64,000 bases of DNA, taken from positions 160,080,875 through 160,144,874 of the forward strand of contig CP136062.1 of the NCBI GenBank assembly GCA_032622095.1. The letters run 5' to 3'. The notes under the pieces are model-generated. The model was given only the letters and a program-made list of their open reading frames with translations, was not told the DNA's origin and did not search any database. A program made the position numbers and the translations under genes. The stretch is from Siphonodentalium dalli. Lineage: Eukaryota > Mollusca > Scaphopoda > Gadilida > Siphonodentaliidae. Positions 3,166 to 57,046 of this stretch are shown here, piece after piece (within the stretch, counting starts at the first letter, position 1; each line of letters begins with the position of its first letter).

Positions 3166-3520
3166 GTAAGTATTACCAATATAGTAACCATAGTAACAAT
3201 CAATTATACTGGCGATATACATGAAAGTGGCCAGCCAGGTCGAACTGAAGTATTACTAATACAGTAACCATGGTAACAATCAATTATACTGGTTAGATAC
3301 GGCCAGCCCAGTCAGACTTAAGTATTACCAATACAGTAACTATCAATTATACCGGCTAGATACATGAAGGTGGCCAGCCAGGTCAAATTTAAGTGTTACC
3401 CGAGTAACAATGAAAATTCCCAAACATGTGGGAGAATTATAATACCAGAGTCATACATGAAAGTGGCCAGTTGGGTCAGGTGTATGTGTTACTGTAGTAG
3501 CAATCAAAATTCCCAAAAAA
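3166..3520. repeat. Tandem copies of exon B donor junction
   Basis: About four degenerate units of 65-85 bp repeat the last 45 bases of exon B plus the first 35 of the intron (ATACTGGCGATATACATGAA, GTGGCCAGCCAGGTC, AAGTATTACCAATACAG). In the clear copies the donor GT is changed (CTGAAGT, CTTAAGT, TTTAAGT), so only the true site keeps ACGTAAGT. Confidence 0.85.
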
Positions 3521-4058
3521 GTTAAAACAAATTGATGGTAAACAAATTTTGAATCTAAATATTTAAATTATAATTTTGATTATTGCCATCAAATAAGCAG
3601 TTATAATAGAGAACATACTATTACAAGCAGCCGATGGTTTGGGAATCCTGTGTAACTACATGTATTCCCACAGAAAGCTGTGTACCATGTCTGATTATTA
3701 TATAAGTCAAGATATATTGTGTCTGATATTTTATTCTTTTTGACAAGTTCACCAGCACTGGGTAGTAAGTAGACTGAATGTAAGTAACTCCAAATCTGAG
3801 CCATATTTGATAGAAATCTGAGCCAAAGTCGCTCAAAATCCAGGCCATAGTTGCTCAAAATCCGGACCGCAACATTAAAGTTTTTATTATTTTTAACAAA
3901 AAATAAACTATCATATTCTCAATCTCCGAGACCAACCTTCTATAAATTATTTTGGCAAAAGAAAGTGCAAATAGAGGTCTGCATTTGGTGCACAGTAAAT
4001 ATTAACAACACAGGTAGTGACAAATTATTCTTAAAATATTGTTTATTTGGTGAATTAA

Positions 4059-4167
4059 CCGTTTCATGCTCTTTCCATCAATGTATCACATTATTATAAT
4101 CAATAAATTTGGAAAATTATCAAGGAAATATGGGTTGATACAAAAATCGGACTTGGCACTGAAACGG
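4059..4167. mobile_element. Short TTAA-flanked MITE
   Basis: A 109-bp unit with ends CCGTTTCATG and GCACTGAAACGG sits between TTAA at 4055-4058 and 4168-4171. It shares its body (CAATGTATCACATTATTATA) with the GTGCCAAGTC palindromic family but carries one arm only. Confidence 0.7.
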
Positions 4168-4425
4168 TTAAGCTTCCTAGAATTTCCCTCTATTTTGCCC
4201 TACTCAAAACTGTGCAGGTCATTTTGTCCTAAGACATTATTAAATTATATAAATTAGGCTTTCCATGTTCCCTCCATATAGGGTTTTTGCAAAATTTCAG
4301 GAAGCTCCAGTCATGAAAGGTTAAATCCAGCGAACCACTTTTCTTTAAATGTTATTAACTACCAACAACACATTAATAAGTAATTTATATATGGTGGCCT
4401 ATTAATCAACATTTTTCTCGCACAG

Positions 4426-4663
4426 ACTTCTGCTAAAGGGAAGTAACCAGGAACTTGTTATCAGGGCGCTAAGCTTCCAGAACCAGACACTACAGTATGA
4501 ACTCACGGACAACAACAACCTGCCGACTGATGTCTTTATCTACCAATCACAGGCTGGAACTGTTGAAGTTCAGCAGACCTTAGATTACGAAACGGGACCA
4601 ACAGGATACTCACTCAAAATCCGGGCCACAGAGTTGACAACCAATCTTCATACGACTGTAGAT
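4426..4663 (+). CDS. CadN: CadN-like exon C (cadherin repeat 2, middle)
   Basis: Acceptor CTCGCACAG at 4425; one base completes the Thr codon begun in exon B, then 79 codons run to donor GTAAGT at 4664. The peptide has the strands of a cadherin repeat: LVIRALSFQNQTLQYELTDN, AGTVEVQQTLDYETG and YSLKIRATELTTN. It is not a simple ATG-started ORF and is visible only by exon joining. Its end is repeated many times in the following intron. Confidence 0.85.
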
Positions 4664-5570
4664 GTAAGTAGCTCAAAATCCAGGACATAGTCACGAATCA
4701 ATCTGCATATCACTGTAGAGATGTAAGTAGCTCAAAATCCAGGACATAGTCACTAACCAATCTGCATATCACTGCAGAGATCTAAGTATCTCAATATCTG
4801 AGCCATAGTCGCTCAAAATCCAGGCCATAGTCACTATTAAACCAATCTACATATCACTGTAGAGATGTAAGTAGCTCAAAATCCAGGACATAGTCACTAA
4901 CCAATCTGCATATCACTGCAGAGATCTAAGTATCTCAATATCTGAGCCATAGTCGCTCAAATCCAGGCCATAGTCACTAACCAATCTGCATGACACTGTA
5001 GAGATGTAAGCTCAAAATCTGGGACATAGTTGTTCAAAATCAGGCCCATAGTCACTAACCAATGTCCATACTACTGTGTATGTAAGTATCTCTAACTCCA
5101 AGCCAAAGTCACTCAAAATCCAGGCCATAGTCACTAATCTATCTGCATATCACTGTAGAGATAGATGTAGCTCAATTTCTTGGCCATAGTTGTTCAAAAT
5201 CAGGCCCGTAGTCACTAACCAATGTCCATACCACTGTAGATGTAAGTAGCTCAAACTCCAAGCCATAGTCACTCAAAATCCAGGCCATAGTCACGAATCA
5301 ATCTGCATATCACTGTAGAGATGTATGTAGCTCAATATTCGGGCCATAATTGTTCAAAATCAGGACCATAGCTGCTCCAAATTGAGCCATAGTCACTCTG
5401 AATCCGGGCCATGGTTGCTCCGAATCCAGGCAGCAGAGTTGCTATCCAATCTTCATACGGCTGGATGTAAGAAGCTCAAAATATGGGCCATAGTCACTCA
5501 AAATCTGGGCATATTTGTTTAGTTAAAATCTGGGACATAGTCACTCAAAGTCCGGGTCAAAGTTGCTCAC
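4664..5570. repeat. Tandem copies of exon C donor junction (about ten units)
   Basis: Units of 65-90 bp repeat the end of exon C and its donor: CTCAAAATCC(A/G)GG, CCAATCT(G/T)CATA, ACTGTAGAGATGTAAGTAGC. The source is CTCAAAATCCGGGCC ... GACTGTAGATGTAAGTAGC at 4611-4672. Several copies keep GATGTAAGT and are potential donors (for example near 4731, 4868 and 5240); others read GATCTAAGT or GATGTATGT. Confidence 0.88.
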
Positions 5571-5641
5571 AATCCGGACGATAATCACTTACAAAATCCT
5601 GCCACCAGATCTGGGCATAAAGTCCTCTATATATCCAGTAT

Positions 5642-6116
5642 TGTCCCTATGACTAGGTTACCAGTATTATCCCTGTGACCTGTTTCACTAGCTGATTGAC
5701 ATTGAAGTAAACTTGGACAACAATTGTAAATGCAAAAGTGCTCAGGTAACATGAAGAATGTAACATGAAGAATGTTATCTTTTAAAACTGAATTATCTCT
5801 AGGCCAAACAAAAATAAATGTCTGGTTCAGGCAGGTTCAGGTAACATATCAGAAGTTTTTTTTTTTCCGTTTAGACATATTCTTATGGGTTTCGAGAAAT
5901 CTGAACGATTTTGAAAACTTTAATTATTTATATGATTTTCTTTGTACGATGCTTTGACTTGACAGATAACAACCCATTCTGAGTTATTGAAAATTATGAT
6001 GTGTTTTTTTCTAAAAAAAAATTTAGAAACAATTCTTGAAAACCATGAAAAAAACTGTAGGGTAGAGTGTTTAATATAGAGTAGGTACAGGCCTCAAACT
6101 ATGGTTCTGGATATTT
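5642..6116. other. Intronic stretch, no feature recognised
   Basis: AT-rich intron with poly-A/T runs. I see no coding pattern, terminal repeats or tandem structure. Confidence 0.5.
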
Positions 6117-6445
6117 ACATAGGGGGAATTTGGTAATGCTACCCTGCACAATGGGCTAGCATCACTAAATTCACCCTCTGTAAAGTATATTTATCATCAA
6201 ATGTTAAATTTGTCAGTTTCTACAGAAACATCTTTAGAAAGATGCTTTATCTTTTTTAGTTTAGTTTTTCTATATCCCCAAATTGGTCGACAACACATTG
6301 CATAATCGAGGTGCCCAATGGGTGCAAGTCACCATCTTCACCATCAGGTCCCCAGAGGATGAATTTGCTGACACAAGCCCACTTTACCAGTGTTTGGGGC
6401 ATGGTCAATAAATTCACCCTCTGGGGACCTCATTCTGCAAATGAC
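6117..6445. mobile_element. Composite foldback MITE copy
   Basis: Same GAGGTCCCCAGAGG family: partial left hairpin (GGTAATGCTACCCTGC...), middle with CTATATCCCCAAATTGG, and right hairpin ending ACCTCATTCTGCAAATGACC. The arms have diverged from each other. Confidence 0.65.
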
Positions 6446-6907
6446 CGGCACCATATTTTGAGACCTTGGTAGGTAGGGAAAACCGGAGCACAAATATTTT
6501 TCACTTTGGCCCTATGAATAGAGTATGGTCGGCTCTTATGTTTACATTTTAAACTTAGCTTAAGATTTATGCAGGTTGTTGAGTCCTTCACCAACAGCCA
6601 TATACTGTTTAATCAAATATAATTTCACATCTCTGTTGACATTGTGACATGACATATCAAATATAGTGGGCTCAAATTTATTTTTCTAAAATTAATGCTA
6701 GCATTGTTAGCTTTCTTTTACGTCATTGAAATATATGTAACAAGCTGCGCAAACTTACTGAAGGAGGCTGTGGTCTTCGATAGCGGAGTACTTTACTTTC
6801 TTACTTCGACGTACCCGGATTCCAGATGGAATGGATAGTTTTCATTGCAATTATTCAATGTTCATTTCTATATAGTGTGAGTATGGATACATAACAATTA
6901 CGGTACA

Positions 6908-7422
6908 CAGGGTCCACGCTGGACCAACATTTACTTTTGCCAAATAAATTGCCAAATGAAAATATTTTTTGCCAAATTCTTTTCTAATTTGTCAAATGCT
7001 ATTCCTGATAGTATAATTTTCCGCAACATTGAGTCTTATTTTGTGGTCTATCATACAACAATAAACCAATCACATTGTAGAAGGGTTGCTTCATCAGAAG
7101 GGCACATTACAGAGGATTATGTAAACACCACCACCACACTAAATGCGGATAGTCCCTCACCATCAATATATACTAAATTACCAATGCTATCAGATTAACT
7201 GCATCTTAATAAAGGTGGTAACTTTTCCTATACCTTATAAAACACCACTATAAATATAATTATATTGTGAGAGTTTCCTGAAATGAATGACCAATATTTT
7301 TCAACTTTCATGAGGAATTAAAAAGTGACTTGCCAAAACTTTTGCCAAATGATAATATTTTTTTGCCAAATGTGAATTATTTTTGCCATTGGCAAATTTG
7401 GCAAGTGGCAGCGCGAACCCTG
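6908..7422. mobile_element. Non-autonomous hAT-like element
   Basis: Inverted ends CAGGGTCCACGCTG and CAGCGCGAACCCTG, with repeated GCCAAATG motifs inside each end. An 8-bp near duplication flanks it (ACGGTACA at 6900-6907, ATGGTACA at 7423-7430). It is 515 bp with no transposase. 8-bp duplications with CAGGG ends are typical of hAT. Confidence 0.8.
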
Positions 7423-8106
7423 ATGGTACATCTTTGTTGGATCAGTGAACATTGAGAGATATGAGTTAAACACTTGTTGACTTCTCAGGGAAATGTATGG
7501 GGATGACTTCTCAGGGTAATGTATGGTAATATTCCGACGAAAGCAGTTGTTGTCTATGGAACAGAACAGAACATAATGGTTAAACACACATAGCATAACA
7601 CGAGAAGTAGAAATTAAAGATGGGATATATAGGCCTAACATGACAATATATAGGTTCAGAAACGGCTGCCAAAGTGGTCGTACTCTAATAAAAGTGTACA
7701 ATGAAAAAACATGACAATTTTACCGATGCATGTTGTCAAATGACAAAATATTCCAATGACATATATGTACTCTTTATATGTTGACCTCTCAGAGAGTTGG
7801 AACTCTGCAAGACTTAGTCACGCCCACAGAGCACATCAATTTTCACCACTTATATTCAGACGGCTGTATCTCCTAAACGCCTCAACATGCAGAGCTGCCT
7901 GATGTGTCATTTTAACGGCGACATACTCAGCTATATCATGATGTACACATTGAATCTGCGCATGCGCGTATATAGTATTCAGTGATATAATGAACCAATA
8001 TATGTCTATATTTACATGTTCCTATATCCTTGTTAGAAAATTCTTCAAATGTTCTAGTCATGTTAAATGTTTTACAAACAACATGGTAATTATAATGAAA
8101 ATTAAT

Positions 8107-8262
8107 TCATTTTCATTATAATTACAATGATGTTTGCATTGTTGCTCATGAATGTATTTTGCACTAATCCATGGCTCAAATTCATTAATTTGTTGCATAA
8201 ATTCTGTTGAGTATAAAGGAGATGGTTCCATAAATGGCTCGATATAGTGTACAGTACCCCTT
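8107..8262. repeat. Dispersed repeat, paired with 17349-17518
   Basis: TTCATTTTCATTATAATTAC, TCCATGGCTCAAATT and ACAGTA(C/T)(A)CCCCTTTAA occur in the same order in both places. It is probably a MITE fragment; I cannot define its ends. Confidence 0.55.
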
Positions 8263-8284
8263 TAATGTGTCTTTAGCCACCACG

Positions 8285-8835
8285 AATAATACATTTTATA
8301 GTCTGCAAATTAGGGGATATAGAAACTTCCCAGAAGGGAAAAAGTAACTAAAAACAATGTTAATTTGAGTCTATATATACTTCCCAGAATATGAGGCCTG
8401 AACAGAATGAGGTCCACAGAGGGTGAATTTGGTAATGCTAGCGCACTATGCGTGATAGCATCACTAAATTCACCCTCTGGGGACCTCATTCTGCAAATGA
8501 CAGACTCACTATTTGCAGGCTTGGAGGGAGACATCTTTTCCCTAAATTATGCCACTTCTCATACTGCATGGCCTCATCTGCTATGGATGACCTAGACTTA
8601 GATTTATGTTCCCAGATGGTGAATATTGTGATGTGCACCCATTGGGCACCTTGATTATGCATTGTGTCGTCTGCTAATTTGGGGATATAGAGAATCTAAA
8701 CTAAAACAAAAATTATTTGTGAATAAGTTTCTAAAGAAATAAACAAACGTTAATTTGATAATAAAGATACTTTGCAAAGAAGATGAGGCCTAAGACGAAT
8801 GAGGTCTCCACAGGGTGAATTTAGTGATGCTAGAC
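8285..8835. mobile_element. Two abutting foldback MITE copies
   Basis: 8298-8526 is the right half of one copy (middle plus hairpin, ending CAAATGACAGACTCACTATT). About 8585-8835 is the middle plus damaged left arm of another. The second stops about 50 bases before exon D. Confidence 0.7.
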
Positions 8836-8884
8836 TGCTGTGCTGTTGGTTTTGTTCACGGAAAATTTGTTTGTCACGTTTCAG

Positions 8885-8996
8885 CTTGCAGTGGAAGTGA
8901 TTGATGTTAACGACAACGCACCACAATTTTCCCTGACAACATATGCCCAGGAAAATGTTCCAGAGAATATCGCTATCGATGACACAGTTGTCACAG
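8885..8996 (+). CDS. CadN: CadN-like exon D (repeat 2 end, repeat 3 start)
   Basis: Acceptor CGTTTCAG at 8884, donor GTTTGT at 8997. The peptide is LAVEVIDVNDNAPQF, a canonical calcium-binding inter-repeat linker, followed by SLTTYAQENVPENIAIDDTVV. It joins in phase 0 to exon C and leaves one base for exon E. The donor is weaker than its neighbours and precedes the largest intron of the window (8.7 kb). Confidence 0.88.
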
Positions 8997-10276
8997 GTTT
9001 GTAACCAGTGAAAAGCATAATTGTCTATGCTATTGTGTGTGAACACCTATTTTGGAAATTTCATATTTACACCCTACTGTGGGTATAAATTTCTACTGTG
9101 GGTGTAAATTTTCAATCGTCATTTCATGGGTTAAACGTTTAAACCAATAGTAGAACTACATCATAAAACAAAATAGTACTTATGTTACATTGATTTAAAA
9201 TTGGAAGTTGTTATAATAACACTTAGTGTTTGTGTTTTTGATGAGGATACGTTTTAAGAGTAAACAGCGGAGTTGTTGAATTCATGGTTCAAATAAAAAC
9301 TAATAAGGCCATACACACTTAATAGTTCGTTTCTCAGGGATCGCCGCGTCCCCCAAAAACCTGCGCCTCCCCCTTATTTATTGGCACCTATAAAATAATA
9401 AATATATAAATACCGCATGTCCCGAACCGCCCCAGACCGATAACTTCGTCTTGAAACTTTACGCAAACTGCAAATCTATCCGGACTGCAAATCTATCCGG
9501 ACTTTACATTCACAAACAAGGGCGGATAATTCTGACGAACTTCCTGTTTAAAATAATAACAGTACAATAACGGTCGTAACGGAAACACGGAATCTTTATA
9601 TGCTCCTGGAAAATTCAACAATAATTGACTATAACTATGCAAATTGATCATCTAACCATCAAAAAAGTTTGGCAACACGCTGGAAACACATTCTAGAATC
9701 GTTTGATTCGTTGTTTTCTTATTTCGAGGAACTTTGGACCAAGAACCGAGAAAAAACATTTTCCGTTAATTCGAAAATCCTACTCCGTCTTGCTCGTCCG
9801 GAATCCGAAATTTCGTTGTGGAAATTCTCCCGGAAGGAAGAAGACTCGTGACAACGAAGACCATTCTTGAAGGAGTACCGTGTTCCCGTTGCAATTTGAT
9901 TTAAAATCTGGCTCTTGCTGCTAAATTTGAACCTTAATTTGTTCACAAATTGGTAGTATATCTTGACATTGAATGATTGATCACATCCAGACTAGCCTAG
10001 TAGAAGTTGAACCGAACAATTTCAATTTAACTTCATATACCACACAAATTCTAAAATTTTATTCTGATATTTGTGTTTATTAACTAGTGCTAACAATGAA
10101 CTTCTTATAGCCAGTACTATTGAGTCTAGATTCCGATACTAGTCGATACTAACAGTCTAACACCTACTAACACTAGTACTCGTTGATGAACATTTGAGCT
10201 GACTCAGTAGATATCCAAGACAATAGATATTCCGATTATAGCTGTAACTTTACACCCAACGGTTTGTTAGTACTAT

Positions 10277-12421
10277 ATGTATATGCCAATACCAGGGTCC
10301 CCCAGGCTCAAATCAATATCCATGGCGTACGCACTGAGGAACAGGGTCAGGGTACCTACCACCAGCACAACTATCACTCGAGATGGACCAGCAAGAACAG
10401 TTGCCACCATCCAGACGCGACGCTCCGCGGCGGCATCAAGCAGCACAGGAGTACCTACTACATCTCATGAGGTGAGGGACTACGAACTGAACCAACATAA
10501 GGCCCTATCCAAGGTACGACAGGCATGTGAGAGGCCTTTTATAAACATAATTCCGAGGGACCATGGGAAACAACTGAAAATCGAATGCAGTGCTGGCTGT
10601 TATAACCTCCTCAAAAATGAATTACAGTCAAGTTTTTCCAGCGCCGAATTTACACAGAAGCACAACTTCATCGCGGAACAACGCACCATCCTGGATAGAA
10701 GAGGATCCACCCCTGAAACCATCATCACAGCAAAAAACATCCTGGCTAGCGGCAGTGCAGAAAAAAAGGAGAAATTTACTATCAACATGTACAACACCAC
10801 ATGCTCGATATTAATAAATGGACGAAATACCTCCTTATTCCATGACGACATCCTCCCAGAAATAATGGACAGAGTCAAAACCCATCCGGACATGAAAAAA
10901 TTAGATCGACATATTGCTACTCTGATCGACCAATGCATTGAGAAGAGTGTCGCCCAACCGAACACCAGCACCACCATGGTATGTGCACAAAATGGTGCCA
11001 TACTAGACACCACTCCCATGTCTGAGCCGAACGAAGAAGACGAATACACTACATGCCCGCACTGCGAGGAAGAAGTGGACGACGGTATCCAGTGTGGGAC
11101 CTGCACACACTGGTACCACTACACATGCGAAAACATCGACAGGACCATGGAGCAGTTCTATCAAGATGACGACACCCCGTACAGCTGCCTCTCGTGCAGA
11201 CATCTTACACTCACAGATGTCACAGATGAAGACCTTACAGAGCTGAAAAGTACAACGCAGCCCTCGAATACCGAATCAGACACCGCACTGCAGAATATAA
11301 ATCGTAAAGAAACCATTGAGCCACCACAACAAACAGAACATCCTACACTCGCAGATGAAGATAATACAGAACAGAAATGTACAACAACACGACCCCCACA
11401 TACCGAGGCAAACACCGCACTACATAATATAAACTGTGATGAGATCACTGAGCCACCACAACAAACAGATCCCAGTTCACAAGACAAATCTAATGACGAT
11501 AACTCAGCACCACCTGACATTCTAACCAAACAGAAGAAAGAGAAACCAATCAAAACAAAACCTAAACGAAATGAAAAAGAAGACGACAACCAGACACACC
11601 TACAACTACGATTAGCACAGACAGTAATCATTGGCCTGGAAACGAAGGTGAAAGACCTAGAAGATTCTAACCGAATCCTAAGGATGCAAGCCACATACAC
11701 AACAGCACCCGATAGCGGTCACAACATTCATAACGTGCAGCGGACATCATCTGACATCCAAGACATGCAACAACACATGCAACGGCTCGAGATGGACCAG
11801 CTAAGAACTCGACTAAGCATGCTGGAAATGCAAATGAGCCAAAATATCATGCCAACTGCGCCACAACAGACAATGACGCCTAAATACCAAACAACTCAAC
11901 AACCATATACTGCACCGGCAACTTCGTACACCCAACATCCTCCACCACCAATATGGAACAACCTACAAGATCCCCCACAACCAGATACAAGATGGACGCC
12001 CGGCACATTCATCACCGATCAAATGAACTTCCATCAGCCACAACACCCGGCACAACAAAACACATATCCTCCGAATATACATCCAATTCATCAAACCTTC
12101 TACCAACCGATACCACGATCGAGACAACCACCACTAACCTCGCAACTGAAGTATAAAGCGCCACCGAAACAAAATCAACGGACGAAACACACAACAAGCA
12201 ACAAACCACCAGGCCCACCACCTAGACGACGACCCAATGTACCACCCGACCACCAGAGACATCCAAATCCGGAAAAAGTTGCCTTCAACGACGAGCGACA
12301 AGACAGCCTTCCGATCTCCCAAAACATCACCAACATGACATCCGCTCAGACCACTGACCAGTCTTTTTTAGGGCAAGGCCGGGCCAAAACAACACTGGGG
12401 ATAGCAAACCACTCACTATAA
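10277..12421 (+). CDS. LINE ORF1 protein with PHD finger
   Basis: Up to 714 residues. The ATG at 10322 (residue 16) has a better context (TCCATGG) than 10277 and may be the true start. An N-terminal conserved region of the LINE ORF1 type (FTINMYNTTCSILINGRN, about 158-175) is followed by a PHD/C4HC3 zinc finger at about 259-306 (CPHC, CGTC, HWYHYTC, CLSC). Next comes a Thr/Gln-rich linker with two imperfect repeats (LQNINRKETIEPPQQ, LHNINCDEITEPPQQ), a short heptad segment (IIGLETKVKDLEDSNRILRM) and a Pro/Gln-rich basic tail. ORF1 proteins bind the element RNA; a PHD finger might contact histones, which is inference. Confidence 0.88.
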   Translation: MYMPIPGSPRLKSISMAYALRNRVRVPTTSTTITRDGPARTVATIQTRRSAAASSSTGVPTTSHEVRDYELNQHKALSKVRQACERPFINIIPRDHGKQLKIECSAGCYNLLKNELQSSFSSAEFTQKHNFIAEQRTILDRRGSTPETIITAKNILASGSAEKKEKFTINMYNTTCSILINGRNTSLFHDDILPEIMDRVKTHPDMKKLDRHIATLIDQCIEKSVAQPNTSTTMVCAQNGAILDTTPMSEPNEEDEYTTCPHCEEEVDDGIQCGTCTHWYHYTCENIDRTMEQFYQDDDTPYSCLSCRHLTLTDVTDEDLTELKSTTQPSNTESDTALQNINRKETIEPPQQTEHPTLADEDNTEQKCTTTRPPHTEANTALHNINCDEITEPPQQTDPSSQDKSNDDNSAPPDILTKQKKEKPIKTKPKRNEKEDDNQTHLQLRLAQTVIIGLETKVKDLEDSNRILRMQATYTTAPDSGHNIHNVQRTSSDIQDMQQHMQRLEMDQLRTRLSMLEMQMSQNIMPTAPQQTMTPKYQTTQQPYTAPATSYTQHPPPPIWNNLQDPPQPDTRWTPGTFITDQMNFHQPQHPAQQNTYPPNIHPIHQTFYQPIPRSRQPPLTSQLKYKAPPKQNQRTKHTTSNKPPGPPPRRRPNVPPDHQRHPNPEKVAFNDERQDSLPISQNITNMTSAQTTDQSFLGQGRAKTTLGIANHSL

Positions 12422-12426
12422 GAACC

Positions 12427-45129: not shown

Positions 45130-45133
45130 TTAA

Positions 45134-45300
45134 CCCTTTCAGTGCCAAGTCCGATTTTTGTATCAACCCATATTTCCTTGATCATTTTTCAAATTTATTG
45201 ATTATAATAATGTGATACATTGCTGGAAAGAGCTCTTAGAGCTCTTTCCATCAATGTATCACATTATTATAATCAATAAATTTTAAAAATGATCAATTTT
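45134..45300. mobile_element. Truncated GTGCCAAGTC MITE sharing a TTAA with its neighbour
   Basis: CCCTTTCAGTGCCAAGTCCG begins right after the TTAA at 45130. The palindrome centre (GAGCTCTTAGAGCTC) and most of the second arm follow, ending about 25 bases before exon O without the expected terminus. Confidence 0.75.
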
Positions 45301-45324
45301 ATAGTTAATGCTTTCTCTCCCTAG

Positions 45325-45640: not shown

Positions 45641-45661
45641 GTAAAAACATTTAGCTTGTAA

Positions 45662-46109: not shown

Positions 46110-46329
46110 TGAGGCCACAGCAATTTTATTAGTTGGTTTACAAAACATCAGGAAAAAAATCTCTAAATGGCAGAGTGAATAAAAAAAACTTAGGCAGGTC
46201 TCGACATACCAATTGAAGATTATTACACACAATCCTGGTGCTTGCAAATCTCATAATATTCATCTGAAATCACTTTTTGCTAATAAAAATAAATAAAACC
46301 AACATTAAAATCTAAATTATACCCATTTT

Positions 46330-46845: not shown

Positions 46846-47029
46846 CCCATGGTATTATGACTGATAGAACTTTCTTTTATGTTGCAATTTTGGTATAATA
46901 GTTCTCAGCAGGTTTGTAAACCAACTAAATAAGTAAATTTGTGTCGCATAACTTTTTTTTTTAAATCTGATCCTGCCCCTAAATAAAGAAGAGCAACTTT
47001 ACAAACAGTACTGTATTTTTTATTTTGCA

Positions 47030-47282
47030 TGACTAAATCTTTTGGCATGCAACATCCAACATTTTCTATCCAATTGATTCCAAACTTTATATGGATCTCA
47101 AAATGGGAGCAATTGAATTGTTCTTAGTTTCTTTGGAAAATATGGCAGACAGCAGTCATCATGGATTTCACATTAGAATCCATTGACACATCCTGCAGTT
47201 CACATCTATTGGAGAACTATTTGAAATGAAAACAGTTTCATCTACAAAATACAACCCCTTCACTAAAACTTTTAGACTTTCC
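47030..47282. repeat. Dispersed repeat, second copy of 42462-42705
   Basis: Same order of short motifs as the first copy, direct orientation, more diverged. No coding content. Confidence 0.5.
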
Positions 47283-47316
47283 TTATTATTTATCATTCCA
47301 TTGAATGTAATTGCCC

Positions 47317-48124
47317 CAGTTCTGATTAAAACCATACTCAGACTATAAAAGTACTGAGTCTGATGAAACCCGCTATCTGTCGATTTACTGTCGCTATAAA
47401 TAACTTCCACAGACAACCCCCTGCAGTATGACGTCACTGCCCACATTTGTCTTTAAACATAGCTTTGATTGACATAATGTAGTTTCGGTTTCGTTTTCGC
47501 TTAAGAGTTTCGTTTCCACAGACTCTTTATGGCAGTTCCTGGGAGAATTGATGCTACGCATTCTCTCAGAATATTTTCTGCGCCTTGTGACATAATTTTA
47601 ACTGAGATTAATCATGTTTAACAAACTTTAAATGCGTTTATGACTCGAAACAAAATAATATTTTCTTTGTTAAATTTCGAAGTTAACATCATATGCCGGA
47701 AATTAAATAAATTTACGACATCGCGACTTCTAAATTATTCGGTACTAAATGTTGAATTTCTTAATAACATTCAATTATATTACATATTAAGTAAAATTAG
47801 TCAATTCTGCACTCTTTAAATACGCTTTTCAATGTTAAATTTGCTGTCGTAAAACTCTGAATTTGTAAACATTAGCCATGCGGCGGAAAGTTATTGTGCT
47901 ATTTATAACTATTGGGCGGGGTTTACTGGAATCGGCACCGGCTGAAGGAATTCCCCTAGTCTTGGGGATTCCCTGCGACTATCGCCTGATTGGTTACCTC
48001 GTGTTCTTGAGGATATTGTGATTGGCTGGCAATTACGTAATTCGTGCTGGGAGTAATGGAACCTCTACCCATTGTCATTAGACTCAGCACTTTTAGAGTC
48101 TGAGTATGGTTTTAATCAGAACTG
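47317..48124. mobile_element. Mutator-like element with exact 9-bp duplication
   Basis: Terminal inverted repeats of about 49 bp begin CAGTTCTGATTAAAACCATA and CTCAGACT(A)TAAAAGT; they match with about four changes. TAATTGCCC flanks both ends (47308-47316, 48125-48133). Long inverted repeats with a 9-bp duplication fit Mutator-type transposons. The 808 bp have no recognisable transposase. The element sits 44 bases upstream of exon P. Confidence 0.85.
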
Positions 48125-48168
48125 TAATTGCCCCATCCCTACTAATCCAATTTGTATGTACTTTTCAG

Positions 48169-48644
48169 ATGTGTTTGTCATGCATGTGTTAGCTACAGAC
48201 GCAGATGCCTCAGAAAATGCTAGAGTAACATATACGTTTCGTAGTTCCTTCGTTGGATCAAATGATAAAGACCTATTCACGATCACTGAAGGTGGTGCTG
48301 TGTATACCCACTCCGACGGTTCCGATCTTGACGCCGAAATGAGAAGAGAGTACACTTTACTTGTCGTAGCAACAGACCATGGCAATCCGGCTCAGTCCTC
48401 AAAAGCTAATATTACTATTTGGCTCAATGACTTAAACGACAACACGCCAAGATTCATGAGATCTGAATACGAGATCAGCATCTCAGAAAATCAAGCATTG
48501 GGAACGGAGATTCTTGAGTTACGGGCAACCGATGCGGATGAGCTTGATAATAATCTTCAATTTAGCCTCGATCCAAATCAGTTCTTCACTGTCCAGACTA
48601 TTGATTTAGATCAGCTATACAAGGGATCTCTGCAACTAAACCAG
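48169..48644 (+). CDS. CadN: CadN-like exon P (repeat 11, repeat 12 start)
   Basis: Acceptor TACTTTTCAG at 48168, donor CAG|GTGTGT at 48645. With the base from exon O: DVFVMHVLATDADASENARV, FTITEGGAVYTHSDGSDLDA and YTLLVVATDHGNPAQSS, ending ITIWLNDLNDNTPRF. EYEISISENQALGTEILELR, ATDADELDNNLQFSLDPNQF and LYKGSLQLNQ follow as repeat 12. The exon ends in phase 0 at the first unit of a long minisatellite. Confidence 0.93.
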
Positions 48645-51600
48645 GTGTGTATCCCCGACCCTCTATCATGTGTGTATCCCCCAATCATTTACCAGGTATG
48701 TATCCCCTGACCCTCTACCAGATGTATATCCCCTTATCATTTACCAGGTGTGTATCCCCCAATCATCTCCCAGGTGTGTATCCCCCGACCCTCTACCAGG
48801 TGTGTATCCCCCGATCATTTACCAGGTGTGTATCCCCCCGACCCTCTACCAGGTGTGTATCCCCCGACCCTCTACCAGGTGTGTATCACCCGACCCTTTA
48901 CCAGGTGTGTATCCCCCCGATCCTCTACCAGGTGTGTATCCCCCGATCATCTACCAGTTGTGTATCCCATGTTCATCAGGCCTGGAAATCTCAAGGCGGG
49001 CTGCCCGCCTAGAATTTTCCAAGGCAGGCTTTTTATAGCCCGCCTCGTCTACGATAGGACATTTATTATTTAGTTATTTTATTGTGTTTAATGAGTAAAA
49101 TACTGCATCGAAGTTGTAATTATATTGTACAGTGTGGGGACTAATCGCATGCGTGACCTGACGGTAATGTCAAATAGGAATTATATCGGAATCAGTAAAT
49201 TCCGGAACGAACTGTTTCGTAAATCTGATCTTTTGATCGATTCTCACACATTTTATGACCAAAATAAATTATTTCGCTTCATAAGATTGAGCTTACAATA
49301 TATTTCACTGGATAAAATGAACACATGTTTGTTGATAGTGAGAACGAAATGTCATCGTCCCAATTAAGGTCAACCTTTCGGTCCGATTTCGGTTCCTATC
49401 AGTGAAAATTGTATTTAGCTTGCAGCCGTCTTTTATCGCTTCGATTGACAATATTTTAATATAATTAGCTAAATGTATCCACGTATTCTAGTTTACACTG
49501 TTATTCAATTATTAAAGTTCAGAAACTATTTTCTATGTCCCCAATTGCAAACACCCAGTAAATCTCTAGATAGCGACTGCGATCGGCAATGGAATATGGA
49601 TTACTTTGAGAGAAAAAGCAGTCAATATTCAAGTGCAAATATACTGGTGTTAATATTGTTCTTGATTGTGTATTTTATGTAAAATTACACTTTCATGGAG
49701 AATGCTTTTAACGTGGACAAACTCACCCAATTCCGTTGCATGGGTTGGACACCGACTGACAAATTGTTGAGTACAAACACTCTTACATTTTGTTTCTGGT
49801 TCATATAAATTATCATAACATATAAAACATAGTTAAATATTCACCATACCATAATTACTGTGTGGGATTTTGACATTCACAACTCTGTGGACACTTTGTT
49901 TCCACATGAAAAAAATTAATTTAGATGGAGTTATACAACATCAAAAATAGACAAACTAACCTAAATCATAACTTTAAAAGTTGAGGAGGGCTATAGCCCT
50001 CCTAGGCATATCTAGGAGGGCTATTAATAGCCCTCCTGGATTTTCTAGATCGCCAGCCCTGGTTCATCCACCAGGTGTGTATCCCCCAACCCTCTACCAG
50101 ATGTGTATCCCCTGATCATCTACCAGGTGTGTATCCCCCGATCAACTGCCAGGTGTGTATCCCCCGATCATCCACCAGGTGTGTATCCCCCAACCCTCTA
50201 CCAGATGTGTATCCCCCGATCATCTACCAGGTGTGTATCCCCCGATCATCTGCCAGGTGTGTATCCCCCGATCATCTACCAGGTGTGTATCCCCCTATCA
50301 TCCATCAGGTGTGTATCCCATGTTCATTCACCAGGTGTGTATCCCCCGATCATCTACCAGTTGTTTATCCCCTGACCCTCTACCAGGTGTGTATTCCCCG
50401 ATCATCTACCAGGTGTGTATCCCCCGATCATCTACCAGGTGTGTATCCCCCGATCATCTACCAGGTGTGTATCCCCCGATCATCTACCAGGTGTGTATCC
50501 CCCGACCCTCTACCAGGTGTGTATCCCCCGATCATCTACCAGGTGTGTATCCCCCCATCATCTACCATGTGTGTAACCCCCGATCATCTACCAGGTGTGT
50601 ATCCCATGTTCATCTACCAGGTGTGTATCCCCCGCCTCTACCAGGTGTGTATCCCATGTTCATCTACCAGGTGTGTATCCCCCAATCATCTACCAGGTGT
50701 GTATCCCCCAACCCTCCACCAGGTGTGTATCCCTCGACCCTCTACCAGGTGTGTATTCCCCAACCCTCTACAAGGTGTTTATCCACTGACCCTCTACCAG
50801 GTGTGTATCCCCCGACCCTCTACCAGATGTGTATCCCCCGATCATCTGCCAGTTGTGTATCCCCCGATCATCTGCCATGTGTGTAACCCCCGCCTCTACC
50901 AGGTGTGTATCCCATGTTCATCTACCAGGTGTGTATCCCCCAATCATCTACCAGGTGTGTATCCCCCAACCCTCCACCAGGTGTGTATCCCTCGACCCTC
51001 TACCAGGTGTGTATTCCCCAACCCTCTACAAGGTGTTTATCCACTGACCCTCTACCAGGTGTGTATCCCCCGACCCTCTACCAGATGTGTATCCCCCGAT
51101 CATCTGCCAGTTGTGTATCCCCCGATCATCTGCCAGGTGTGTATCCCCTGATCATTCATCAGATGTGTATCCCCCGATCATCTGCCAGGTGTGTATCCCC
51201 CGACCCTCTACCAGGTGTGTATCCCCTATCATCCATCAGATGTGTATCCCACAATCATCTGCCAGGTGTGTATCCCCTGATCATCTGCCAGGTGTGTATC
51301 CCCTGATCATCTGCCAGGTGTGTATCCCCTGATCATCTGCCAGGTGTGTATCCCCCAATGATCTACCAGATGTGTATCCCTCGACACTCTGCCAGGTGTG
51401 TATCCCCCGACCCTCTACCAGGTGTGTATCCCCTGACCCTCTACCAGGTGTGTATCCCCTGATCATCCATCAGGTGTGTATCCCCCGATCATCTGCCAGG
51501 TGTGTATCCCCCAACCCTCTACCAGGTGTGTATCCCCTTATCATCTTCAAGGTGTGTATCCCTCGATCATCTGTCAGGTGTGTATCCCCCGACCCTCTAC

Positions 51601-51750
51601 CAGGTGTGTATCCCCTGATTATCTGCCAGGTGTGTATCCCCAATCATCTACCACGTGTGTATCCCCAGACCCTCTACCAGGTGTGTATCCCCCGACCCTC
51701 TACCAGGTGTGTATCCCCCGACCCTCTACCAGGTGTGTATCCCCCGACAG
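48640..51750. repeat. 26-bp minisatellite seeded by the exon P donor (about 75 units)
   Basis: Unit (C)TACCAGGTGTGTATCCCC then CGATCAT or CGACCCT. The first unit is the exon P end itself (AAACCAG|GTGTGTATCCCC). About 13 units lie before and 64 after a hAT element at 48978-50060. Nearly every unit holds CAGGTGTGT, a plausible donor. A 26-bp unit without stops gives long ORFs in several frames; these are not genes. Confidence 0.95.
48978..50060. mobile_element. hAT-like element inside the exon P minisatellite
   Basis: Ends AGGCCTGGAAATCTCAAGG and ATCGCCAGCCCT, each followed inward by short hairpins (GCGGGCTGCCCGCC; GAGGGCTATTAATAGCCCTC). Flanked by TGTTCATC (48970-48977) and GGTTCATC (50061-50068), seven of eight bases equal, both derived from array units. 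1,083 bp, no transposase seen. Confidence 0.78.
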
Positions 51751-52218
51751 ATTTTACAGGAAAGAAGCCCTCACACTGAACTGTATGGATCATATCTCCA
51801 CCCTGTGCTGACAGAAGGAAAGGGTTAAACTTATTGTCGCTAACTCATGATATACCTGCCTGGATTAGTCACGCCCCCAGTGTATAGCTGCGTATACTGA
51901 TGTGCCAGTTTTATTTTCCTCCTCGCCACTGATCTAATGTAGTATCTTTCTGAATTTTGATTTTTTCAACTCAAAATTTATTTGTCGCTACCCAACATGC
52001 AATTTATTTGTTGCTAACACAATCAATTTTATATTTATATTGGCTTTATACAGGAAAGTTCTGCTTCATACGCACTTTCCTTATTTTCATAAAGCCGATC
52101 AAAAAATGTCATCTGTTCACGTCTATTTGTAAATTTCTGACATAATTTTGACTAACAATTTAAAAATAGATTGCCATCTTGACCATGATTATATTGTATT
52201 CTCTTTGCCCATTTTCAG

Positions 52219-52463
52219 GCTGTGGACTATGAGAACGAACATCATCGATATTTCAATCTTACTGCTTACGTCAAAGATAACAGGGATCCGATTCACACGA
52301 ATCAGACAAGAATCATCGTTCATGTTACTGACTTCAATGATAATGCTCCAGTAATCGCACCACAGCTCAAGAGCCTCGAGAGACACGAAAACATTGCCCC
52401 CGGCACGGAATTACAAACCTTCACTGCAACTGATGGAGATAGCGGACAGAATGCGGAATTCAC
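52219..52463 (+). CDS. CadN: CadN-like exon Q (repeat 12 end, repeat 13 start)
   Basis: Acceptor CCCATTTTCAG at 52218, donor GTAAGT at 52464. AVDYENEHHRYFNLTAYVKD continues directly from QLNQ of exon P. IIVHVTDFNDNAPVI is a canonical linker. HENIAPGTELQTFTATDGDS and GQNAEF begin repeat 13. Phase 0 in, phase 2 out. Confidence 0.92.
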
Positions 52464-52514
52464 GTAAGTTCATTTAAATTAAATCCACTACATTATTAGC
52501 TCAACTTGACAGAT

Positions 52515-54464
52515 ATCAAGTTATGAATAGATCTATAACACTCGCATTATATTTATGTGTACCCATACAATTCGTCCATCCATCCATCTGTCTGTGTGTG
52601 TCTGTCTGTCCGTCCGTCTGTCTGTCTAGCCATCTGTAGACACTTTACACATAATGCGATAACTCAAACTTTTTCTATCCGAATTAAATTTTGTATATGA
52701 GTTTCTCAGCCCAAAATACAGATCGAGTTCGAATATGGGTTTGATCCAAGTTTTTGTTATAAATAAAAAATGTTTTTATTTTTTAAATAATTAACAAAAT
52801 GTAATGTAACTTAGATTGAACTCCTTGCTCAATTAAAATTTTTTTATTTTTTTTTAAGTTAAAAAACACCATTTATAACTACATCAGGGTACCCCGAGTC
52901 ACCACACCAAATTTGGTTTAAATCGATCCAAACTCATGTTTTATGTACTTGTAAATATGTTTGGAGTGATATCAAACCCAATTCACCAATTTCATCCCAT
53001 GCCTTTGGACTACTTAGCTATTAATATGGCTATATCATTTTCTGATGTCTCTTATGCCAATGTGCAGATAAAGAAAGCTATTGTATCTAAACTTAAACAA
53101 ATGTTTCAACATACGCATGACTACAAAATCTGAGTATATCACTCTACAGATGGTCTGAGGTCATTATAAATTTGATAGGTTTAATACAGATGCCAAGATT
53201 CAGCATAAACAAAACCAGTGATTAGTTGACAGCTCTGCTATATAATTAATATTAATGGGTCAGCAGTGAGGTGACTTATCTTGATGTCTGTGTTATTGGT
53301 AGAATTTGATCCATTATCATTGTAAACTTAAATTGGACTCTATTAACCCAAGTATTCCATGTCCGGGTCACCTTTTCACATTTAATCCAAGGCTGCGCTG
53401 GTGCAGCATTACAAATCCTGTGCCAATGCATTCTCTTATACATGCGAGTCTCCCTATTTGACCAATAAATTCAATAAGTTGTGATATTATATACATTTGT
53501 CTATAATAGTACATAACAGTATACTCCATAATTCAACATCAAAACTCTAATTTATGATTCTGATCATAGTAATTTACTATCGCCAAGGGATGGGTTAAAC
53601 ATCTGCCGATTGTGATCGGCCCCTCGTCACTTACTGTTGGGGTATCTTTAGTTCAAGTGATAACTATGAATACATATTTAACACTCATATTATTTTTACT
53701 TATATTTGGGGCATCTTAAGCTCCAGTTATAATCATGATTAGATCTATAACACTCACTTTATTTTTACTTACTGTCGGTATATCTTAAGCTCCAGTGATA
53801 ACCATGAATAGATCTATAACATTCATATTATTTTTACTTACTGTCGGGTCATCTTAAGCTCCAGTGATAACCATGAATACATCTATAACATTCATATTAT
53901 TTTTACTTACTGTCGGGTCATCTTAGGCTCCAGTGATAACCATGAATACATCTATAACACTCACTTTATTTTTACTTACTGTCGGGTCATCTTAAGCTCC
54001 AGTGATAACCATGAATAGATCTATAACATTCATATTATTTTTACTTACTGTCGGGTCATCTTAGGCTCCAGTGATAACCATGAATACATCTATAACACTC
54101 ACATTATTTTTACTTACTGTCGGGTCATCTTAAGCTCCAGTGATAACCATGAATACATCTATAACATTCATTTTATTTTTACTTACTGTTGGGATATCTT
54201 AAGCTCCAGTGATAACCATGAATACATCTATAACATTCATATTATTTTTACTTACTGTCAGGTCATCTTTGGCTCCAGTAATAACCATGAATACATCTAT
54301 AACATTCATATTATTTTTACTTACAGTTGGGGCATCTTAAGCTCCAGTGATAACCATGAATAGATCTATAACATTCATATTATTTTTACTTACAGTTGGG
54401 GCATCTTAAGCTCCAGTGATAACCATGAATACATCTATAACACTCATATTATTTTTACTTACAG
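52515..54464. repeat. Tandem copies of exon R acceptor junction
   Basis: About ten units of 85-88 bp: CATTATTTTTACTTACTGTC, GGGTCATCTTAAGCTCCAGT then GATAACCATGAATAGATC. The seed is the exon R acceptor TTTTTACTTACAG plus TTGGGGCATCTTAAGTTCCA. Distal copies read TTACTG (AG lost). The last one or two upstream copies (near 54325 and 54400) still read TTACAGTTGGGG. Confidence 0.93.
52551..53628. mobile_element. Helitron-like element, ATGTTTACCC family, within the exon R array
   Basis: Head TTTATGTGTACCCATAC, GTCTGTCTGTCCGTCCG, body with CTCAGCCCAAAATACAGATC and CACCACACCAAATTTGGTTT, tail GCCAAGGGATGGGTTAAACA then GCCGATTGTGATCGGC and CCCTCGT. The left flank (TGAATAGATCTATAACACTC) and right flank (ACTTACTGTTGGGG) belong to one array unit, so the insertion split the array. 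A T run hides the exact joint. Confidence 0.75.
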
Positions 54465-54598
54465 TTGGGGCATCTTAAGTTCCAGCGATAAAGCTCGACA
54501 GTTCAGCATTAGTACTGGAGGTGTGCTGACTGTTTCAAAGTCACTAGATAGAGAAACTATAGCGATACATAACATCACAGTCACAGCTACTGACAAAG
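54465..54598 (+). CDS. CadN: CadN-like exon R (cadherin repeat 13, middle)
   Basis: Acceptor TTTTTACTTACAG at 54464, donor GTATGT at 54599. The first base completes Thr; then WGILSSSDKARQFSIST, GGVLTVSKSLDRETIAIHN and ITVTATDK. These are the F, G and ExxxY-type strands of a repeat. One base out. The identical acceptor context in the units upstream is strong evidence that the array came from this exon. Confidence 0.9.
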
Positions 54599-54608
54599 GT
54601 ATGTATTA

Positions 54609-54843
54609 AAGGCCCACATAATTTTCGAACCCCAGATCACTATATATAAAATATATGCCATGTTATACACTATTCGAAAGAGGAAGCTCCAAACCTTTGT
54701 ATTATTAACTTATTTGCTCAATAAACTGTGAACATGTTGTTTTTGTTGAGGTACCAATGTCTTTTCTGTGTGGGATAGCATCACTAAATTCACCCTCTGG
54801 GCACCTCATTCTGCAAACGACAGGCACTCTAAACTCAGGCTTG
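54609..54843. mobile_element. Two truncated MITE fragments
   Basis: 54609-54755 is an inverted partial copy of 41100-41556 (AAGGCCCACATAATTTTCGA ... AAACTGTGAACATGTTG). 54770-54843 is the right arm of a foldback MITE (CACTAAATTCACCCTCTGGG ... GCACTCTAAACTCAGGCTTG), ending about 45 bases before exon S. Confidence 0.7.
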
Positions 54844-54888
54844 GCTCCAACATTCATTTCCTTGCTTCTATAAACACTTATTTTTCAG

Positions 54889-55146
54889 GTTCTCCGCGAA
54901 AAATTGGTACGGCTAAAGTGACCTTGACATTGCTGGATATCAATGATAACTTCCCAATATTTGCTGAGGATTATCGGCCAATCATTATGGAGGGCCTGCC
55001 TCCACAACAGGAATTCTTAACATTCAGCGCAGTAGATAAAGATAAGCCAGAGAATGGACCTCCATTTACTTTCCAGCTTCCATGTAGCGGACAATGTTGC
55101 CAGGGATTTGATACATGTGATGATTTCAGCATGCGGTTTAACAGAG
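54889..55146 (+). CDS. CadN: CadN-like exon S (repeat 13 end, repeat 14)
   Basis: Acceptor TTATTTTTCAG at 54888, donor GTAAAA at 55147. TAKVTLTLLDINDNFPIF is the linker. YRPIIMEGLPPQQEFLTFSA then VDKDKPENGPPFTFQLP start repeat 14. The insert CSGQCCQGFDTCDD carries four cysteines, as expected for the membrane-proximal region of non-chordate cadherins. One base in, one base out. Confidence 0.9.
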
Positions 55147-55168
55147 GTAAAATTTATATCTATATATA

Positions 55169-56055
55169 CAGTAAAACCTCTCCAAACCGAACCCTCTATA
55201 AACCTAATCACTCTCAATAACGAACAAAGTCATCATCTTTACGATGTGCATTAACCCTTCCATGACTGGAAGGGTTCTTCAAATTTTGCGAAAACTCTGC
55301 GACAATGCATTTTCTTATTTGTGCGAGTCTCCCATAGGGAGACTCGCATATATAAGAAAATACATTGGCTAACAACATTTACCTTGACCGTGCGACCCAG
55401 TGCATTCACTTATATATGTGAGGCTCCCTATGGGAGACTTACACATATAAGAGAATGCACTGGCACAGGATCTTTAATGCTGCACCAGTGCAGCTCCCAT
55501 AATGAAAGGGTTAATATCGTGATGGTCTTTAAATTTATCTTCAGGAATGATTACTGTATACAGTGCAAACTCTCCAGTCCGGACCCTCTATAAACCTAAT
55601 CCCTACCCATAATGAAAAAATTGTCCGGTCCCGAATTCACGTGCATTCTCAATAAAAAATTACCTCTGTGAACAGGAACCCCTCTATTCCGAACATCGGA
55701 TGGCTTTCTAGTCCATAAGTGAGCAAATACATTAATTTTTACTTCCGTAATCCGAACATGATTTGACTTAGTTGACTTATTGGCTTTGGTGTAGACTGGG
55801 GAAGTTGAAAGCGTTCGTCGAACATAAGACCGCTAATTAAATCTGTACCCATATACAAGAGTACGAAATATTTTATTTGGTACCTTATTGAATAAAGTTA
55901 AATTAATCAAAATAATGAGTTGATTGTGCTTCAACAACTCTTAGTAACGACATCAGTACATTCCAATCATAGTACAATTTTCTATAAAACGAACTCCTCT
56001 CTAAACCGAAAAGACAGGCTGGTCGGAAGGGTGCTTGGTTTGGAGAGTTTTACTG
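55169..56055. mobile_element. pogo-like MITE with a nested TTAA MITE
   Basis: Ends CAGTAAAACCTCTCCAAACC and GGTTTGGAGAGTTTTACTG, TA on both sides (55167-55168, 56056-56057). Subterminal CCCTCTATAAACCTAATC occurs twice. It begins 22 bases after the exon S donor. A piggyBac-like MITE is nested at 55255-55510. Confidence 0.85.
55255..55510. mobile_element. TTAA-flanked palindromic MITE (CATGACTGGA family)
   Basis: TTAA at 55251-55254 and 55511-55514; ends CCCTTCCATGACTGGAAGGG and CAGCTCCCATAATGAAAGGG. Two hairpins with TTGTGCGAGTCTCCCATAGG and TATATATGTGAGGCTCCC. Relatives at 58794-58999, 60559-60800 and 63874 onward. Confidence 0.85.
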
Positions 56056-56463
56056 TATGTAAAAGCGTATGATCTGTCTGTCGTCCGTTTGCAATTTTTC
56101 TCCCAAACCTTTGGACCGATTTCAACGAAATTTTATGTGGTGACTCGAAGGTTCCCTGTGATAACGGCTTCAAGTTTTAAGAAAAACTTTTTTTAAATTA
56201 AAAAAAAAATCTAAATGTTAAAGGTCTGTCTGACTTTTTTGCGGAGTCATCCCCCTTTTTTATTTAAATTTTTTTGCAACACGCAGAATTTTGTCTTGAG
56301 TTTTGCGATGCTACATTTTCTGGTAAATGTTTTGAAATCTTGGCACAGAGGCCAATTGGGAAATTTTTTTTGCAGTGTTTCTCAATACTACAATGTATAA
56401 AACATTTCCATCACTAGCTGCCATTGGGGAACAGCCCACCTCTAATTACCTTTATTTTGACAG

Positions 56464-56673
56464 ATGGAGACAATGGTAACGGAGTGGGTATTGTCACCAG
56501 CCAACAGACATTCGACAGAGAGGAGCAGAAGTATCTCTACTACCCGATTGTGATGTCCGACTCAGGATCGCCCATTATGAGTGGAACAAACACACTCACG
56601 ATAGAGATTGGTGATATTAATGATAAGGAACATTTCCCGGGCCACAGAAATATCTTCGTTTATCAATACAAAG
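56464..56673 (+). CDS. CadN: CadN-like exon T (repeat 14 end, into non-chordate region)
   Basis: Acceptor TTATTTTGACAG at 56463, donor GTCAGT at 56674. DGDNGNGVGIVTSQQTFDRE, YYPIVMSDSGSPIMSGTNTL and TIEIGDINDKEHFPGHRNIF. The linker DINDKEHF replaces the usual NxP and leads into the region conserved in CadN proteins. One base in and out. Confidence 0.9.
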
Positions 56674-56822
56674 GTCAGTTTTGACAACAGATGTGAATTG
56701 ACAATATATATGATTCATTTCCTGATACACACAGATACACAGGCTGATTTATACAAAACATGTGGGTTACACATCTGCCAACCATGATCGACCTCTCATT
56801 ATGAAATCTATCTGCTTATTAT

Positions 56823-56920
56823 TACCCCCTCCCCCCCCCCCCCCCCTCTCTTGAAGAGAATGGGGGAGTATACTGGATTGACCTCGTCGTTCCATCCGTC
56901 CACACATCTATCCCTCCATT
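56823..56920. mobile_element. Head fragment of a TATACCCCC-family Helitron-like element
   Basis: TTACCCCCTCCCCC then TCTTGAAGAGAATGGGGGAG and TATACTGGATTGACC is the head hairpin, followed by CATCCGTCC. The rest is missing; the exon U array begins directly. Confidence 0.65.
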
Positions 56921-57046
56921 TTTCAGACCTGTATTGGAATGTTGAAATTGGTTCTCTATTTATTACACATATATTTGTATTTTCGGACCTGTTTGGGAAT
57001 GTTGAGATTGGTTCTGTATTTATAACACATTGTTTTGTATTTTCAG
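56921..57046 (+). repeat. Two 60-bp copies of the exon U acceptor junction, in frame
   Basis: Acceptors TTTTCAGACCTG (AG 56925-56926), TTTTCGGACCTG (AG changed to GG, 56985-56986) and the true TTTTCAGGACTA (57045-57046) are exactly 60 bp apart. Each is followed by a version of GGGAATGT(T/C)GA(G)AT(A)GGTTCT. The units have no stops and share the exon frame: DLYWNVEIGSLFITHIFVFS, DLFGNVEIGSVFITHCFVFS, then GLYGNVDIGSVYCED. Confidence 0.92.

Follow-up and report, generated by a model that had tools for sequence, protein, structure and literature searches.

A gene of the scaphopod mollusc Siphonodentalium dalli, predicted to encode a DE-cadherin-like cadherin, carries tandem arrays whose units run across its exon-intron junctions. 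In our reading, to which we give a probability of about 0.7, these arrays are mirages, that is, minisatellites founded when an exon end was duplicated along with the adjoining splice site. Among the other genes of this genome that we sampled, arrays of this kind are in excess at splice donors but not at acceptors. The window, by which we mean the whole stretch of 64,000 nucleotides analyzed, is C2:160080875-160144874 (contig CP136062.1, forward strand) in a genome of 2,226,750,531 bases across nine contigs. The cadherin gene (273..63800, on the + strand, as are all window features given below) has 25 exons and 24 introns, with 57,628 intron bases. Its model was built from GT-AG edges with agreeing phases, and its exon ends are predictions from the sequence. 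The exons, leaving out the array copies, join into 1966 codons with no stop inside, which bears out the 24-intron structure proposed in an initial annotation of this DNA. Pfam recognizes 13 Cadherin domains, a DE-cadherin Ig-like domain (Ig_Shg), and Laminin_G in the gene product. As no start or stop codon was placed in the model, both ends of the gene are assumed to lie beyond the window.

The initial annotation had described seven arrays seeded at splice junctions, and all seven were confirmed with Tandem Repeats Finder and by printing the units base by base, with every unit spanning a predicted junction. They occupy 7 of the gene's 48 junctions, namely the donors of exons B, C, F, and O and the acceptors of exons M, Q, and T. 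On the donor side, the exon B array (3121..3517) has units of ~80 bp with 44 coding and 36 intron bases, four by tag, the fourth showing 8 mismatches in the 24-base tag. The exon C array (4610..5500) has 11 units by tag of ~60 bp, with 53 coding and 7 intron bases, and also shows compound periods of 144-160 bp. Exon F (exon H in the earlier naming) is followed by ~4 units of 71 bp (28951..29230), and exon O (earlier P) by 26-bp units that include 5 coding bases (ACCAG/GTGTGT, the slash marking the junction; 48640..48968), with a further block of ~65 copies of the same unit deeper in intron O-P (50064..51747). On the acceptor side, counting the exon copy in each case, there are nine 64-bp units by tag at exon M (earlier N; 43877..44507), 13 units of 69 bp by tag at exon Q (earlier R; 53629..54491), and three units of 60 bp at exon T (earlier U; 56920..57080).

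The coding share per unit therefore runs from 5 bases (O) to ~53 (C); the annotation's range of 5-45 coding bases was right at its lower end and too low at its upper end. Its unit lengths of 26, 60, 65, 70, and 85 bp become 26, 60, 60, 64, 69, 71, and 80 bp; the 85-bp period is just one of several overlapping Tandem Repeats Finder rows for the exon C array. The units of the seven arrays had been called unrelated, and a mutual comparison indeed found no similarity among them. In a whole-genome unit search that kept the best candidates only, the cadherin gene was the sole match for the M, Q, T, F, and O units, and the B and C units were also matched at two places on contig C9.

To set these arrays against a background, we counted arrays around 180 exons of other genes from the same genome, taken in two batches: sample 1 held 80 exons (40 chaperonin and 40 kinesin) and sample 2 held 100 (27 DEAD-box, 32 ABC, 20 myosin, and 21 kinesin). 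Arrays with units of 20-100 bp were counted, and the expectation was obtained by spreading founding units evenly over introns (intron density). Junctions with a splice score below 5 were dropped, leaving 296 of 360; also excluded were obvious gene duplicates (judged by eye, so that some related copies stay), long open matches that are likely intronless, low-complexity pairs, and units above 100 bp. The counting rule takes a junction as spanned if it falls within the array interval; it was developed on sample 1 and then fixed before sample 2. Under a stricter early rule, 8 of the 129 junctions in sample 1 were spanned against 1.22 expected; the fixed rule added one locus (L030), giving 9/129 against 1.18, beside 26 intronic arrays in 143,740 bases. 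In sample 2, 8/167 junctions were spanned where 1.22 were expected, and 18 intronic arrays were seen in 89,733 bases. The two samples together have 17 of 296 junctions spanned; intron density predicts 2.5. The same code finds 5 of the 48 window junctions spanned against 0.60 expected and misses the F and O arrays. Exonic arrays number one per sample, and they include a 31-bp duplication near an uncalled donor (L050) that was kept out of the spanning class. Four of the eight intronic multi-copy arrays come within ~5 bases of a locus end (L015, L050, L053, and L163, by Tandem Repeats Finder or our own code), and another (L072) repeats the unit of a donor array in the same intron (L069), so the count of eight may be too high.

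The excess lies with the donors. The 17 spanning arrays divide into 14 at 142 donors and three at 154 acceptors (Fisher P 0.005). Measured against intron density, the 14 donor arrays compare with 1.20 expected (ratio 11.7, P 3e-10), and the acceptors reach a ratio of 2.3 (P 0.15). We also repeated the count with all junctions displaced by 80-400 bases toward the interior of the intron. In this shifted control, 14/142 real donors were spanned against 7/1197 shifted points; with stricter scores, the figures were 13/142 against 7/1197 and 12/142 against 3/1197, and for arrays of at least 2.8 copies 8/142 against 1/1197 (the eight donors come from the exact cut, and rounding of copies gives 10). 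The first five shifts alone yielded 5 arrays in 710 points. Two donors (L018 and L021) were relocated by hand for this control after reading their units, and one acceptor (L129) was lost to its first-unit rule, which takes the acceptors from three to two. No excess at acceptors was seen in this control (2/154 real against 16/1306 shifted), so the three acceptor arrays in the window are not accounted for by a surplus of arrays at acceptors across the genome. Relative to the donor, 14 arrays start between -108 and -7 (L018 being taken before its donor was corrected), and further into the intron the starts per 60 bases number 1, 4, 1, 1, 2, 1, 0, and 0. The spanning arrays are spread over 12 of the 88 sampled gene clusters and 7 of the 9 contigs. 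The initial annotation had named position at a splice junction as the common factor and had suggested looking for an array excess at exon ends; both ideas are supported for donors and not supported for acceptors.

Several points weigh against this reading. Once units of up to 150 bp and a lower score are allowed, the loosest setting used, the donor contrast falls to 14/142 against 30/1197, about fourfold. We separated donors from acceptors and ran the shifted control only once the counts for both samples were in, and array counting itself was adopted only after the result of a coverage measure had been seen. The flanks in sample 2 are only 450 bases, and far shifts may miss arrays cut at the locus end. 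All junctions, in the window and in the sample, are predicted ones. Several arrays can fall in one gene (two chaperonin genes have three each, and one ABC cluster has two), which means that junctions are not fully independent and that the P values are correspondingly too small. The main local counter-example is a 62-bp array of ~13 copies in intron H-I (33931..34745), which is wholly intronic. Its unit holds an acceptor-like TTCTCAG, and no exon of the model adjoins the array.

The coverage measure also points the other way. It compares 60-base windows centered on junctions with interior windows. In the window, 9 of 48 junction windows (18.8%) have a copy within 1.5 kb at a score of at least 38, compared with 26.9% of the 1822 windows inside introns and 4.4% of the 135 inside exons. 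The nine junctions are the donors of A, B, C, C2, and O and the acceptors of B, M, Q, and T; the C2 match is intron-only, and the F array falls under the cut. Within 900 bases in sample 1, copies were found for 9/129 junctions (7.0%), 14.4% of 4070 intron windows, and 3.0% of 297 exon windows, and under the same settings the exon/junction/intron gradient in the window is 3.7/14.6/25.5%. Since every array copy and every dispersed repeat is counted, this measure says little on where arrays are founded. An expectation based on array footprints likewise comes close to the observed counts in the window (5.9 against 5) and in sample 2 (7.6 against 8), and less so in sample 1 (4.2 against 9); one array enters it many times over, and the mirages are not taken out of it.

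The array-rich chaperonin genes, with three arrays each where the cadherin gene has seven, lie at C2:20.44-20.48 Mb and C4:24.38-24.40 Mb. The clustering of junction arrays by gene could point to germ-line expression.

The anatomy of the units bears on how the arrays arise. In the 14 sampled donor units, the intron part measures 4 to 42 bases, with a mean share of 0.30 as read by eye from the printed units, which is below what an even spread of breaks would give (Kolmogorov-Smirnov P 0.0096; with the four window donors, mean 0.34 and P 0.031). The intron-side break often lies a few bases beyond GTAAGT. Together with the donor bias, a break so close to the 5' splice site makes exon-tail sequence seem the favored material for duplication.

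Splice sites in the extra copies are largely kept at donors. By strict count, 50 of the 67 extra copies in the 16 donor arrays scanned still have GT (F and L030 gave no copies by tag, and L099 was left out). Four of the eight misses in the exon C array reflect a 2-base shift before GT, so that ~54/67 is the fairer figure. All 30 scored copies of the exon O array have GT, and both scored copies of the exon B array have lost it. Per base, GT retention is ~0.86 (0.90 allowing for the shift in C) against 0.94 for neighboring exon-derived bases. This retention argues that donor decoys are not being removed. At the acceptors, AG is kept in 7/8 upstream copies of M, 2/11 of Q, and 1/2 of T. In the exon Q array, eight of the nine misses read TG, which may be a single variant spread through the array or the result of selection against decoys.

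Copy number in these arrays is unstable, as seen between gene duplicates and not between alleles. At the corresponding donor, the three copies of a duplicated kinesin gene carry 14, 11, and 14 units, and a myosin pair has one 67-bp donor duplication in common. Contig C9 holds, near 28,368,000 and 28,690,000 (L188 and L189), duplicates of at least cadherin exons B and C, with exon C 95% and 93% identical to that of the window. The exon C array counts 11 units in the window and 5 in each C9 copy, leaving out a weak exonic tag match in the window and in L188. By tag, the exon B array has four units in the window and one in each C9 copy, after which a second copy is broken off at a repeat. In L188, a repeat resembling a miniature inverted-repeat transposable element (MITE) stands directly behind the exon C donor and parts the array from its exon.

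We propose that a mirage would begin with a local tandem duplication of ~25-90 bp, bounded by one exonic and one intronic break; the slippage, template switching, and nick repair named in the initial annotation would all be candidate routes. The duplication would persist because its copies sit in the intron, the exon-proximal site presumably being still the one used. The array then gains and loses copies as other minisatellites do, which the paralogs show, and its founding or its retention is strongly biased toward donors, which the sample shows. Duplications across acceptors may be rarer because the decoy lies upstream of the true acceptor, and the splicing machinery would reach it first. The donor excess calls for biased birth or biased retention, and we lean toward a mutational bias of exonic or transcribed DNA, from which selection would pass only those duplications whose far end is beyond the donor. 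More tentatively, and at less than even odds, a mutational process tied to 5' splice sites might repeatedly copy the exon tail and donor into the intron, affecting about one donor in ten and making a large share of multi-copy genic minisatellites exon-derived. Candidate triggers at 5' splice sites would be breaks, R-loops, or template switching governed by transcription or by the chromatin boundary between exon and intron. If this is true, upstream exons would feed introns piece by piece.

The closest competitor is a bias in retention, which we consider somewhat unlikely. Births would be even, and junction arrays would outlast others since their exon copy is constrained and cannot be deleted and nearby insertions are purged. 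In keeping with this, junction arrays with close to two copies have for the most part diverged (0.83, 0.87, 0.88, 0.90, 0.92, and 0.96), a number of two-copy intronic arrays stand at 0.97-1.0 (others at 0.77-0.92, many with offsets of 74-100), and in L188 a stretch of repeat severs a mirage from its exon. Such constraint perhaps lengthens the time over which junction arrays can be detected, which would count against a mutational bias, but its effect should be about twofold and not twelvefold. The excess moreover holds for arrays of at least 2.8 copies, whose copies are ~95% or more alike, and there is no rise just past the donor, where only one array starts in the first 60 bases. Tolerance alone, which the initial annotation offered as an alternative, is less probable still. 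Under it, duplications would arise evenly, exonic ones would be purged, those at junctions and in introns would persist, and the cadherin gene would owe its arrays to chance and to repeat-rich introns. Local copies do increase from exon to junction to intron in both sample 1 and the window, and the acceptors behave as tolerance predicts. Duplications in intron interiors should be equally tolerated, however, so that tolerance may explain why arrays survive and not why those at donors outnumber interior ones, at ~12 times the intron-density expectation and with so few arrays at shifted donor points.

Two further explanations fare worse. Donor copies might be useful, aiding splicing or holding U1 along the intron, and hence be selected; the many copies with GT, including all those scored at exon O, would suit such a role, but GT is retained no better than the neighboring exon-derived bases, both scored B copies have lost it, and copy number differs between duplicates, so that we regard usefulness as very improbable. 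The arrays might also be remains of intron gain, new introns having come from tandem duplication of an exon piece bearing AGGT. Such an origin has been proposed, in the parts of these reports available to us, for amphioxus globins (PMC3087553), for human genes with repeats at exon-intron boundaries (PMC2812944), and for a potato gene (PMC4974935). In all 24 introns of the cadherin gene, however, the last 60 bases lack a clear likeness to the upstream exon end, and the first 60 bases lack one to the downstream exon start. Scores for the 24 introns stay at about the shuffled level, the largest being 16 against a shuffled 95% level of 14-18 that was computed for the first comparison only, and we give this origin almost no credence.

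Two further junctions of the cadherin gene have old copies that stand singly and not in tandem. The exon A donor (432-461) has an isolated copy at 1690..1719 (93% over 30 bases), and the exon B acceptor region (2907-2972) has one at 1958..2023 (80% over 66 bases). Dispersed-repeat sequence lies between exon B and this acceptor copy (2082-2489 and 2541-2860). The copy is present in both C9 duplicates and is probably older than that duplication.

In our naming, which corresponds to A through Y of the initial annotation in the order A, B, C, C1, C2, D, E, F, and H to X (the letter G being skipped), the exons of the gene are A 273-458, B 2916-3165, C 4426-4663, C1 8885-8996, C2 17718-17847, D 19692-19942, E 27899-28173, F 28539-28991, H 30807-31181, I 37333-37524, J 40546-40723, K 41922-42065, L 42802-42908, M 44474-44644, N 45325-45640, O 48169-48644, P 52219-52463, Q 54465-54598, R 54889-55146, S 56464-56673, T 57047-57161, U 58214-58395, V 60255-60505, W 62108-62376, and X 63419-63800. 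The introns contain repeats of other kinds. A palindromic MITE-like repeat, CCAATGCATTCTCTTATATATGCGAG, recurs many times, near several mirages (2232-2490, 18343-18533, 29360-29680, 44743-45141, 55294-55470, and elsewhere). Satellite-like intronic arrays with periods of ~147-174 bp occur at 20246, 23917, 30070, 32290, 34895, and 46381, and also in introns of other sampled genes (L005, L008, L016, L052, L056, and L079). Intron C1-C2 holds two adjoining long open frames of 716 and 1155 codons (10271-15825), which, judging by their motifs, resemble a long interspersed nuclear element that would encode a reverse transcriptase and whose first protein would be PHD-like. Elsewhere in the genome, contig C5 shows many cadherin-domain matches (e.g., at 30-34 Mb, 75 Mb, 164 Mb, and 195 Mb) in open frames of ~900-1000 codons, which suggests an expansion of protocadherins. 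Searches turned up no hemocyanin match of either the arthropod or the molluscan type, a result that falls short of establishing absence.

Mirages were earlier described gene by gene in amphioxus; here they are counted with controls, and the bias falls on donors. This opens testable questions about where genes duplicate DNA and how introns grow, as well as how splicing handles a dozen near-identical donors beside the correct one. Junction arrays can also mislead exon prediction, and they could be used as length markers.

In amphioxus, mirages were described in Adh3 and in the globins BflGb6 and BflGb9 as tandem repeats across exon-intron boundaries, with regular splicing, length instability, and a mechanism called unclear in the portion of the paper at hand (PMC3087553), and further ones in PGBD5 and troponin C in the accessible part of a later report (PMC3902484). 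As far as those portions go, the arrays described here are alike in spanning the boundary at either intron end, in having many copies with AG or GT (amphioxus units run from tens to ~160 bp), and in their unstable length. Tandem units with coding bases and a splice site cross the boundary in both the window and the sample, both intron ends are affected (with sampled acceptors not above background), and copy number varies between paralogs. The differences are that seven arrays occur in one gene here, with a count over 180 other exons and a donor excess, and that splicing is stated to be regular for amphioxus Adh3 and globins, whereas the present arrays are known from DNA sequence alone. The hosts differ as well, with a genome of 2.2 Gb in nine large contigs here. 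The amphioxus genome is about 0.5 Gb.

Other systems offer partial parallels. In human segmental duplications, variable minisatellites with an average unit of 30 bp sit at exon-intron boundaries and are tied, in the available text, to new introns (PMC2812944). Like ours, they are boundary minisatellites of paralogs (recent ones) with varying copy number; they differ in lying in exons or altering introns, with changed transcripts, and that portion of the text neither compares them with intron interiors nor reports a bias toward donors (PMC2812944). The available part of the report on potato RdRp describes intron gain by tandem genomic duplication (PMC4974935), which likewise includes splice signals; the window introns show no sign of such an origin. 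Earthworm intronic minisatellites are not placed across junctions in the section of text examined (PMC12783039), and a partial literature search turned up no comparison of donors, acceptors, and intron interiors. A further likeness concerns exon-end minisatellites whose units carry donors. The human gene IFI6 (6-16) has one that gives multiple splice donors, according to the title of a paper (Nucleic Acids Res 1995;23:1854), and the extra donors are reportedly used in the transcript there; in the present arrays, the extra donors are predicted sites only. As a kind, then, these arrays are already known, as mirages, and have been little studied; what is measured here is their bias toward donors.

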